Below, piece by piece: positions 22,793 through 43,262 of a stretch of 43,262 nt of DNA. The notes beneath the pieces were generated by a model. That model was not told the DNA's origin. It searched no databases and worked only from the letters and a program-made list of their open reading frames with translations. Both the position numbers and the translations under genes were made by a program. Every line of letters begins with the position of its first letter. The first letter of the stretch is position 1. This DNA is from an uncultured Clostridia bacterium (GTDB lineage: Bacteria; Bacillota; Clostridia; Oscillospirales; CAG-272): positions 1-43,262 of the forward strand of contig CANQNM010000003.1 of assembly GCA_947625265.1 (NCBI GenBank). Reading direction: 5' to 3'.

Positions 22793-24727
22793 TTACCGCA
22801 TTGCCCGCATAGCGTTGAGAATCGCAAGAACCGAAACACCCACATCGGCGAACACCGCGAATTCCCCCGCATATCCCTCAAGAACCGAAAGCGCAGGAAG
22901 CACCGCTGCCAAACCCAACAGGATAAGCACGCCGAATTTTACAACCAGTGCAAGGATAATGTTCTCCTTTACCAACCTCATGGTTTTTCGGCAGAGTCTT
23001 ATGGCCTTAGGAACATCCGACGGTCTGTCGTTCATAAGCACCACATCTGCCGCTTCCACGGCGGCGTCCGACCCAAATGCGCCCATGGCGATACCCACAT
23101 CGGCTCCAGCCAGCACCGGCGCGTCGTTGATTCCGTCGCCCACAAAGGCCACTGTAAAGTTTCCGGAAGACTGCCCGTCCTGTGCGGCGGGTTCCCTTAC
23201 AAGACGCACCTTGTCTTCCGGAAGCAACTGCGCATGGTATGCGTCCAAATCTAAGAACCGTACCGTTTCCCTTGCGTTTTCGGCGCGATCCCCCGTCAGC
23301 ATCACCCGCCGAATCCCCAGATCCTTCAGTTCTTTGAGCGCCTGGACGCTGTCCTCTTTCAACGTGTCCGACGCAAGAATGCAGCCGATATATTCGCCGT
23401 CGCGCGCAAGGTATACGGCGCTCCCCTTGGAACTTTCCGGAATGCTTTGCTCAATTCCCAGTTCCTTCATCATTCTCAGGTTTCCCGCACAGATTTTTCT
23501 TCCCTGAACCGTCGCCGCAACGCCCCTGCCTGCGAGTTCCTTATACTCCGAAACTTCCGGCAACGGCCCATCTCCGTATTCCTCCCGAATCGCTTTTGCA
23601 AGAGGGTGCGTACTGTATTTCTCCACCGCCGCCGCAAGACACAGAAGTTCTTCTTTTGAACAGTGTTCCGGTAAAAGTTCCTTCACCGAAAAACTGCCTT
23701 TCGTGAGCGTGCCCGTCTTGTCAAAGAAGACCGTTTTACATTTGGACAGCCTTTCCACATAGACGGAACCTTTCATAAGAATACCCTTAGAGCACGCTCC
23801 GCCGATACATCCAAAAAAGGACATGGGCACTGAAATGACCAAAGCGCAGGGACAGGAGACAATCAAAAACATCAACGCCGCGTGTATAAAAGGGCGCCAT
23901 GTGTGCGCGAATCCCCAATTTCCTCCGGAAAGTCCCATGGCCAGCGGTGGGATCAGCGCCATGAGCAACGCGACGCCTGTCACCAAAGGAGTATAAACTC
24001 TTGAAAACGCGGTGATAAAATTTTCGCTTTTCGACTTGTTCAGCCCGGCGCTCTCCACCAATTCCATGATTCTGCGCACAGTGCTTTGCGAAAACGGTTT
24101 GACGACTTTGATGCGCAGCGCCCCGGACAGATTGACACATCCCGAAACCACTTCGTCCCCCTCGGTCACCTCTCGGGGAAGGCTTTCCCCGGTAAGTGCG
24201 GCAGTGTTCAGTTCTGAAGTTCCTTCAATCACCACGCCGTCCAGCGGCACCCGCTCGCCGGGCCGAACAAGAACCGTCTGTCCAACCTGAACCTCCTCCG
24301 GGGATACGCTCTCCGTCGTCCCGTTTTTCTCCAGATTTGCAAGTTCCGGCATCATATTCAAAAGCGAGGACACAGATCTTCTCGATTTACCCACCGCAAT
24401 GCTCTGAAACAGTTCCCCAACTTTATAGAAAATCATGATCGCCGCCGCCTCATGCGCCTCTCCTGCATCCTTTTCCACAACACAGAGAAGCAGCGCTCCC
24501 AAAGAGGCCACACTCATAAGAAATGTCTCATCGAAAATTTGGCCGGAAAACAGTCTGCTTACCGCCGACCACAGCACATCGTAACCGATGAAAAGGTAGG
24601 GGATCGTCATAGTGAGCACACCCGCCCAAAAAGGAGGGTTCCAAATGGCATTCACAGCCAGCGCCCCGAAAAACAGAATCAGAGACAAAAGAATTCTAAG
24701 CAGCGTCTTTTTTTGACTGCCTGTCAT
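22793..24727 (-). CDS. cadA: Heavy-metal translocating P1B-type ATPase (Cd/Zn/Co type), no HMA domain
   Basis: ALTGESLP, VSCPCALVISVP, FFDKTGTLTKG, KYSTHPLAKAI, VGDGINDAPVLAGADVGIAMG all intact. Confidence 0.92.
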   Translation of the reverse strand: MTGSQKKTLLRILLSLILFFGALAVNAIWNPPFWAGVLTMTIPYLFIGYDVLWSAVSRLFSGQIFDETFLMSVASLGALLLCVVEKDAGEAHEAAAIMIFYKVGELFQSIAVGKSRRSVSSLLNMMPELANLEKNGTTESVSPEEVQVGQTVLVRPGERVPLDGVVIEGTSELNTAALTGESLPREVTEGDEVVSGCVNLSGALRIKVVKPFSQSTVRRIMELVESAGLNKSKSENFITAFSRVYTPLVTGVALLMALIPPLAMGLSGGNWGFAHTWRPFIHAALMFLIVSCPCALVISVPMSFFGCIGGACSKGILMKGSVYVERLSKCKTVFFDKTGTLTKGSFSVKELLPEHCSKEELLCLAAAVEKYSTHPLAKAIREEYGDGPLPEVSEYKELAGRGVAATVQGRKICAGNLRMMKELGIEQSIPESSKGSAVYLARDGEYIGCILASDTLKEDSVQALKELKDLGIRRVMLTGDRAENARETVRFLDLDAYHAQLLPEDKVRLVREPAAQDGQSSGNFTVAFVGDGINDAPVLAGADVGIAMGAFGSDAAVEAADVVLMNDRPSDVPKAIRLCRKTMRLVKENIILALVVKFGVLILLGLAAVLPALSVLEGYAGEFAVFADVGVSVLAILNAMRAMR

Positions 24728-24788
24728 GCAAAGCACCCCTTTTTTGAAAATTTTCGCCTCTCAGCAAAGAAAACCGAATGTAAACCGT

Positions 24789-41162: not shown

Positions 41163-43118
41163 CTACAGATCCGTTTCGGGTATGAGACGCAGACCTGCCG
41201 CGTTTGCAAGCAGAAACACAAAAGACAGAAGAGCGGCCAAAAGCGGGACCCGCCCGTCGGTATAGCCGGCCGCGGACAGGATCATGCCGAAAAGAGAGAA
41301 AAGCGCGGAAATCCAAAGATTTTTCCGCATGACGGCGGCAGTGCGTTTTGAAAGACGAAACGCCCTGTAAAGTTCTTCGGCTGTCCCGGTTTTCAGTAAA
41401 ACATCGGCGCTTTCCCTGAGAATTTTTTCGCTTCCGAACAGAGCGACACTGACGTTTGACGCGGCAAAGCCGGGGATATCCCCCAACGATTCCCCGACAA
41501 CCGAAACCCGTTTGCCGCTTTGACGAACCTCCCTGATTCTTCGTCCTTTTTCAGCGGGAGACGCTGCGCAGACCCCACCGTCTGTCCCCAAACCGCATTT
41601 CGAAGTTTCCGCCGAACCGTCCGAAAAAAAGACGAAATCCACACCGGAATTTTTAAGCGCCGTCCGCGCCCTTTCCTCCCTTGACTGATTCTCTTCGCAT
41701 TGAGTTTTTTCAGGTTCGTTTGCGCCTTTGATCCCCTCCCCGTTGAACTTTACCGTCTTGTCGGATTCAATGGGTTTGCCGGATTCATCGGCTTTTTCTT
41801 TGACCGATTCCTTTTCGTCGTCTCCGCGACGGTCAAAAATCACAGTGTCGATTCTTCTCAAATCTTCAAGAGCGGCAGCCCGGTGAAACAGCACGCCCTC
41901 TTTGATACCTCTGCGCATACCCGCGGCGGCGGCAAGAAATACCGCCGTTTCGGGTGAAAAAATCGCGGAAACCGTCAGCATAAAGACACCGATTCTAAGA
42001 ACCGTCCCAGGATCTCTACAAAAGAACAGCCAAAACGCACAGACAAAAAACGTAACGCTCAACGCCGCACAGGCAAAATATTTCCCGAATTTTTTGGAAA
42101 TCTCCCTGACGGAATCCTCCTTGCCGCATATCTCCTCAAACGATGAGCAGATCTCTGAAAGCAGCGTATACTCCCCGGTTTTCTCAGCGACGAATCGGAA
42201 TTCATCCGTCAAATTTACAGTTCCGGCGTACACCTTTGCGCCGGGAAAAAGTTTCCGGGGCGTTTTGGTTCCCAGTAGAAGCGACTCATCTGCAAGCGAA
42301 GAACCACAAAGAATTTTTCCGTCCGCAGGAACGGTATCTCCTGCACGTACAACGGCGACGTCCCCCGGGAAAAGCGATGCTGCGGGTATCACGCGCAGTT
42401 GTCCGCCCGCGCACACCAGCGCGTGTTCGGGCATTAACTCCACAAGATTTTGAACGGTATGCGACGTATACTCGGTTTCGATTTTCAAAACCGTAAAATC
42501 CTTGAACGCCGCCAATGTGAGAATCATACCCGCCGGTACAAACAAGAGTGTCGGGGAAAACGCGGTAAAAATAAGGGCGCGAAGCATGTTGTAGACAGAA
42601 TACGCAGCGGCGGCTCCCACACCCGCCGAAACCAATGCGTCGGTGTTCGGCTTTCCCGAAAAAAGGGCGGGAATTCCTTTTCTGAAAGGTTCAAAATTGA
42701 AAAAAAGAATGGGAAGAAACAAAAAAATCTGAAGTACCGCGCGAAAATTTTGTTCCTCAAAAATTTCAAACCACTCGGTAAAAACCCTGCCGCCCGCGTC
42801 CACAAACAGCAGAAGCAGCAGAAAAATAAAGGAAATGGTCGCTCTAAACGCGCAAAACGGAATTTTTGCGTTCATGATTTTTCCGTCCCTTACAGCGACT
42901 GAAGAATGGGGCAAAAGGGTATAGCCCGCCCGAGAAACCGCCTCAAAGAGCGGCTGATCGTCGGTAAGATTGTCGGGAAGCGTCACAAGAACCGTTGCAA
43001 AGGACGGATGAATTTCGACAAAAGCCACTTCTTCGCAGGAAAGCAGCGCATTTTTTACCGTCTCACACTCGCGAGGGGTGGCATCCCGCATCCCCAGAAC
43101 CGTATATTTTTTTTGCAT
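41163..43118 (-). CDS. P1B-type ATPase-like membrane protein with all catalytic and metal-binding motifs substituted (putative pseudoenzyme)
   Basis: Intact 651-aa ORF (start ATG 43118, RBS GAGGGAG). HMA-like N-terminus without CxxC; FSPETAVFLAAAAGMRRGIKEGVLFHRAAALEDLRRIDTVIFDRRGD aligns with the CPC...DKTGT region; VVGESLGDIPGFAASNVSVALFGSEKILRESADVLL aligns with the GDGIND region. Confidence 0.85.
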   Translation of the reverse strand: MQKKYTVLGMRDATPRECETVKNALLSCEEVAFVEIHPSFATVLVTLPDNLTDDQPLFEAVSRAGYTLLPHSSVAVRDGKIMNAKIPFCAFRATISFIFLLLLLFVDAGGRVFTEWFEIFEEQNFRAVLQIFLFLPILFFNFEPFRKGIPALFSGKPNTDALVSAGVGAAAAYSVYNMLRALIFTAFSPTLLFVPAGMILTLAAFKDFTVLKIETEYTSHTVQNLVELMPEHALVCAGGQLRVIPAASLFPGDVAVVRAGDTVPADGKILCGSSLADESLLLGTKTPRKLFPGAKVYAGTVNLTDEFRFVAEKTGEYTLLSEICSSFEEICGKEDSVREISKKFGKYFACAALSVTFFVCAFWLFFCRDPGTVLRIGVFMLTVSAIFSPETAVFLAAAAGMRRGIKEGVLFHRAAALEDLRRIDTVIFDRRGDDEKESVKEKADESGKPIESDKTVKFNGEGIKGANEPEKTQCEENQSREERARTALKNSGVDFVFFSDGSAETSKCGLGTDGGVCAASPAEKGRRIREVRQSGKRVSVVGESLGDIPGFAASNVSVALFGSEKILRESADVLLKTGTAEELYRAFRLSKRTAAVMRKNLWISALFSLFGMILSAAGYTDGRVPLLAALLSFVFLLANAAGLRLIPETDL

Positions 43119-43206
43119 AACTCCCTCTTCCCGGCAGAAAATTTGCCTGGCAAAAATTATATGTTTATATATTGCAAAAATTATCAAAGTGAAGACAAAG
43201 TCTTAT

Positions 43207-43256
43207 GCGGGGCTTTGCCCCGCGCCCCATTTAAGGGACTTTTTGGAAAAAGTCCC
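43207..43256. repeat. Double-hairpin palindromic element at right edge
   Basis: GCGGGGC-TTT-GCCCCGC (43207-43223) and GGGACTTTTT-GG-AAAAAGTCCC (43235-43256); window ends just after. Confidence 0.6.
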
Positions 43257-43262
43257 CTAAAA

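Follow-up and report, generated by a model that had tools for sequence, protein, structure and literature searches.

Among kinases, pseudoenzymes have been studied extensively. For pseudo P-type ATPases, the few papers that we found deal with a single disputed human protein, TMEM94/ERMA; no paper on a bacterial counterpart was found. TMEM94/ERMA lacks TGES and has DKQGI and GSSANL, and Mg2+ transport that requires the Asp was reported for it (PMC13322241), whereas another study found neither ATPase activity nor Post-Albers features for TMEM94 (PMC12134183). The protein analyzed here, P0001, resembles TMEM94/ERMA in having the P-type architecture, in the absence of TGES and GDGVND and in the presence of the acceptor Asp (PMC12134183, PMC13322241). 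It differs in that TMEM94/ERMA stems from a different branch (nearest to SPCA), has retained an N-like domain and is conserved in animals, and we claim a relation at the superfamily level only. The disputed activity of TMEM94/ERMA is a caution that the loss of motifs need not mean the loss of activity, though TMEM94 keeps the N-like domain that P0001 is without. The second comparator is CopA, represented by the copies of three congeners (L059, L060, L061) and by LpCopA (3rfu/4bbj). P0001 shares with CopA its descent, its fold and the domain order HMA-TMs-A-TM3/4-P-TM5/6, but is without CPC, YN, TGES, canonical DKTGT and GDGxND, the N domain and the C-terminal HMA.

P0001 is encoded at one end of the window, by which we mean the whole stretch of DNA analyzed, 43,262 bases. 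This is the entire contig C3 of a metagenome-assembled genome of gut Clostridia, of 1.99 Mb in 165 contigs that is 87% complete. Motifs were called from a 34-sequence alignment, in which 32 CopAs of the bacterial family served as comparison. The features are as follows.

41163..43118, minus strand: P0001, CopA-derived, 651 aa, open frame, lacking the motif set of a functional P-type ATPase (TIGR01525, E=1.9e-57; closest relatives, canonical CopAs of the genus)
43121..43128, minus strand: strong ribosome-binding site AGAGGGAG preceding the P0001 ATG, read directly from the sequence
42909..43118, minus strand: HMA-like N-terminal domain, aa 1-70, beta-alpha-beta-beta-alpha-beta, GMxCxxC replaced by GMRDATPREC, 8/12 family-conserved columns kept (alignment and AF2 secondary structure)
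42129..42443, minus strand: actuator (A) domain, aa 226-330, the best-conserved part of P0001, 17/24 conserved columns (alignment, AF2)
42264..42275, minus strand: TGES position, LGTK, aa 282-285 (alignment)
41958..41966, minus strand: TM4 CPC position, AIF, aa 385-387 (gapless register; the PDB alignment agrees)
41820..41834, minus strand: DKTGT position, DRRGD, aa 429-433, acceptor Asp D429 kept (alignment)
41688..41819, minus strand: remnant of the N (nucleotide-binding) domain, aa 434-477, ~45 aa, predicted disordered (alignment, AF2)
41616..41624, minus strand: TGD position, SDG, aa 499-501 (alignment)
41547..41549, minus strand: P-domain Lys K524, kept (alignment)
41478..41495, minus strand: GDGxND position, GESLGD, aa 542-547, last Asp kept (alignment)
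43185-43262: dispersed repeat of ~78 bp with an inverted-repeat core (GGGGCTTTGCCCC type) at the contig end, ~40 copies in the genome
22793..24736, minus strand: canonical ZntA-like P1B ATPase with all motifs, the internal control (alignment; orthologs in four congeners)

The minus-strand frame from 43118 to 41163 opens with the ATG behind AGAGGGAG and runs for 651 codons with no stop and no frameshift, as a preliminary description of this DNA had reported. The P1B-ATPase ancestry and fold proposed there held as well. The NCBIfam model TIGR01525 matched P0001 with E=1.9e-57, although the scores against the heavy-metal P-type ATPase models were far below the curated cut-offs. E1-E2_ATPase (1.1e-30) was the sole match in the Pfam scan, which did not match the HMA and Hydrolase (HAD) domains, and LpCopA 3rfu was the top PDB sequence match (E=1e-38). 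Judged by sequence, the homology to P1B ATPases is certain, and chance is excluded both for this homology and for the open frame. The AF2 model had a CopA fold (pLDDT 78, pTM 0.68) and in Foldseek was most similar to ATP7B and LpCopA in the PDB (TM 0.67-0.69), a predicted likeness that was favored because canonical CopAs made up the AF2 input alignment. Phe accounts for 8% of the residues of P0001, versus ~2.6% in the congener CopAs.

The replacements described previously, DKTGT by DRRGD, TGES by LGTK, GDGIND by GESLGD and S/TGD by SDG, were all recovered on the 34-sequence alignment, as was the loss of the first Cys of the HMA motif GMxCxxC, where P0001 reads GMRDATP. The CPC motif, however, had been assigned to SPE in the wrong register; AIF (385-387) aligns without gaps at this position, SPE lies three residues on, and the LpCopA PDB alignment agrees. 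Further losses were absent from the preliminary description: most of the N domain, in a region with two in-frame deletions relative to the congener CopAs, the C-terminal HMA tail, the YN pair of TM5, which aligns with FS at 607-608, and the Ser of TM6, where the second Ser of MxxSS aligns with F633 and the Met with Ala. The statement that every catalytic and metal-binding motif was replaced holds for most motifs but went too far, in that D429, G432 (the Gly of DKTGT), S499, K524 and D547 are kept. S499 is the Ser of SGD, and the congeners also have Ser at this position; the first Asp of GDGxND is Glu (E543) in P0001. Given that the N domain, the CPC metal site, YN and TGES are gone, P0001 should not pump copper, in agreement with the earlier prediction.

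We then analyzed the descent of P0001. Its closest relatives are canonical CopAs of three congeners, with 33-38% identity and all motifs present. The tree grouped P0001 with the CopAs of G113, G146 and G147 (SH-aLRT 100 for the set of four), and a codon model with outgroups preferred P0001 as sister of the three congener CopAs (lnL -10329.6 versus -10339). The branch length of P0001 in the tree, 10, sits at the limit and was not used as a distance. These data show that P0001 descends from the CopA, a copper-exporting P1B-1 ATPase, of its genus. The genome has another CopA (G000:C2), encoded beside a CsoR-like gene, which belongs to a different CopA branch (52.7% to the CopA of G066). This gene (G000:C2:41738-44199; L063:5738-8200, minus strand) keeps DKTGT, TGES, CPC and GDGIND, and ~36 aa of its product, the TGD motif included, are missing as an in-frame gap, by deletion or assembly error.

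P0001 is a singleton. Searches of ~395 family genomes and of five genomes from the genus, together with two GTDB r220 scans, turned up neither a second copy nor an ortholog carrying these substitutions; they returned canonical CopAs only, as did a search for relatives with the C-terminal part alone. One candidate relative, L077, was rejected as a fragment of a canonical CopA. Thus, with no ortholog found, P0001 shows no losses common to orthologs of several species, the pattern by which a conserved pseudoenzyme is recognized, and the long-term retention for a non-transport role that the preliminary description envisaged gained no support from these genomes. The same description held that close orthologs restoring DKTGT, TGES and GDGIND would speak for recent decay; the nearest relatives do have these motifs, but they are the CopAs of other species in other neighborhoods. 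No neighbor of P0001 is shared with the congener CopA loci L059 and L061, whose flanks are readable; L060 lies on a 3.7-kb contig.

A canonical P1B ATPase in the same window had been named as an internal contrast, and the gene at 22793-24736 indeed keeps every motif. This control was used to calibrate the rate of P0001, because synonymous sites are saturated (third-position identity 0.33), so that the branch omega runs to its bound and gives no usable point estimate. Between the control and its orthologs in the three congeners that have a CopA, d is 0.50-0.55; for the orthologs of two of these congeners it is 0.26, and for the CopAs of the same two 0.16. From these values ~0.33 would be expected for P0001, whereas 1.09 to its relatives was observed. 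Put on one branch, this is an acceleration of ~5-fold, whereas full loss of constraint from omega 0.08 would give ~12-fold. The dN/dS comparison proposed previously thus yielded no usable omega value, but omega=1 on the P0001 branch was rejected, being worse by 36.5 lnL units on the four-taxon tree and by 14.1 on the best six-taxon tree.

We compared P0001 with neutral simulations that started from congener sequences and ended at 34-41% identity (200 runs per setting). The simulated sequences acquired 13 to 19 stops on average, with minima of 3 to 9, versus none in P0001; already at t=0.2 substitutions per site, no run had fewer than 3. The replaced residues had a BLOSUM score of ~-0.35 in P0001 versus ~-0.7 in the neutral runs, whose maxima were -0.46 to -0.58; replacements in P0001 were therefore more conservative than in any neutral run. 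TM-like segments numbered 7 in P0001 and 2-3 in the simulations. The lack of stops, the conservative replacements and the rejection of omega=1 support the conclusion that P0001 is not simply a pseudogene evolving neutrally. Constraint may have lasted for a longer time and been lost recently; a mixed history of this kind, with the final third neutral, would match the average rate, yet would predict ~10 stops.

Loss was also uneven between domains. We counted the columns in which at least 90% of the family agrees and P0001 does too. These were 8/12 for the HMA, 16/27 for the first helices and 17/24 for the A domain, but 5/26 for TM3-4, the least conserved part of P0001, 12/32 for the second part of the P domain and 7/20 for TM5-6. 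The N-terminal half (HMA, TM1-2 and A domain) thus keeps 41/63, versus 24/78 in the rest (TM3-4, P2 and TM5-6; p=8e-5). The canonical CopAs L060 and L063 keep nearly all such columns in every domain. These data show that P0001 gave up the transport core and preferentially kept its N-terminal half.

The strongest alternative is that P0001 is a redundant CopA under strongly relaxed selection, which has lost its function and is decaying, and whose frame stayed open by luck or since truncated membrane proteins are harmful. Its status as a singleton, the ~5-fold acceleration, the several in-frame deletions, the loss of most active-site residues and the other CopA gene beside CsoR in its own genome (L063) all speak for this explanation. 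Yet we regard it as unlikely, since a decaying gene should have collected at least the 3 stops seen at t=0.2, and since replacements and hydropathy are better conserved than in the neutral simulations and the loss is uneven between domains.

A second alternative is that P0001 has remained an active enzyme or transporter whose chemistry has changed, either because D429, S499, K524 and D547 keep HAD-type phosphoryl chemistry or because another substrate is moved, as claimed for ERMA/TMEM94. All four HAD core positions are kept, and ERMA was reported to be active with DKQGI and GSSANL and inactive as D427N (PMC13322241). At the 40% rate observed for family-invariant columns, such retention has a chance of ~0.03 (about 1 in 40), but the test was picked after the retention was noticed, so the retention is only suggestive. 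Considering also that the N domain, unlike that of ERMA, is almost wholly missing, that TM3-4 is the least conserved part of P0001 and that TMEM94 itself was without ATPase activity in another study (PMC12134183), we find this explanation quite improbable. Lastly, an assembly or binning artefact, with a chimeric or foreign contig end, might be suspected from a gene known from a single MAG at the end of a contig that closes in a dispersed repeat, but it is highly improbable, since this repeat occurs ~40 times in the same genome, to which the contig end therefore belongs, and since the nearest relatives are from the same genus, the codon-position GC of P0001 resembles that of the neighboring genes and the frame is intact.

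Our preferred reading, which we would accept or doubt with equal readiness, is that P0001 descends from CopA, gave up pumping and was retained as a membrane protein. P0001 was probably reused for something other than pumping, and the best reading is that it was retained for its N-terminal half. It would be produced and would fold in the membrane without its N domain; with this domain and TGES gone, P0001 should be unable to go through the Post-Albers cycle. That the N-terminal half was retained suggests that it may still dock a partner. The simplest candidates are a second protein of the copper system and a different P1B ATPase, which P0001 would bind or regulate and not replace. The P domain, with the HAD acceptor Asp and the Ser, Lys and Asp kept, may hold a ligand or phosphate. 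P0001 may serve in one of the non-transport roles put forward earlier, as scaffold, sensor or partner. Against the best reading, P0001 is a single sequence with no ortholog and no conserved neighbor, and its partner is conjectural. If the reading is true, P0001 is a CopA that has neither N domain nor metal site but a protected frame, and it could be used to study how the actuator domain and the platform of a copper pump act on their own.

The same bacterial family has a second set of such proteins, of ~930 aa and derived from P2A Ca2+-ATPases, which we call pseudo-P2.

G000:C97:2122-4872 (L084/L088); L089-L117, L085, L086, L147-L166: pseudo-P2 members

DKTGT, TGES and GDGxND are absent in all 52 members read (52/52), and the position of the acceptor Asp is usually Pro, as in LIVPKEG. 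The pseudo-P2 profile matched LMCA1 (6zhf, E=7e-120), and the AF2 model (pLDDT 85.6) matched SPCA1, SERCA and LMCA1 in Foldseek. In nearly all of 12 loci from nine genera the gene lies directly beside a McsA-ClpC gene, often with a CvpA-like gene, a membrane-anchored repeat protein, truA and ecfT/ecfA upstream; this order of genes is conserved. Omega was 0.07-0.08 for pairs with readable synonymous change. The 19 class-level matches outside the family were all canonical, suggesting that pseudo-P2 is specific to this bacterial family, as far as a class-level sample goes. Pseudo-P2 is probably a conserved pseudo-P-type ATPase.

Like P0001, the pseudo-P2 proteins are open, folded P-type ATPase relatives of the same lineage without DKTGT, TGES and GDGxND; unlike P0001, they derive independently from a P2A Ca2+-ATPase, keep all domains, have lost the acceptor Asp and belong to a family-wide clpC operon. 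They are unrelated to P0001, yet they show that this lineage keeps non-canonical P-type ATPases. It is conceivable, though rather doubtful, that P-type ATPases became non-pumping membrane proteins more than once in this bacterial family. The older event would have produced the protein derived from a Ca2+-ATPase and fixed beside clpC throughout the family, and a later, independent one would have produced P0001, a regulator or partner derived from CopA that lost the ATP-binding domain. The pseudo-P2 family may matter more than P0001, offering dozens of genomes for testing the same question.

Finally, we compared the place of P0001 in the contig with the corresponding region of congeners. P0001 occupies the place upstream of an MFS gene in its genome; co-transcription of the two genes as an operon was not assumed, given a gap of 292 bp that contains a promoter-like site. 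P0001 is absent upstream of the MFS gene in congeners, where MATE or other genes are found; in G147:C121:1-45163 (L069) and G113:C17 (L070), the gene upstream of the MFS gene is of the MATE type.
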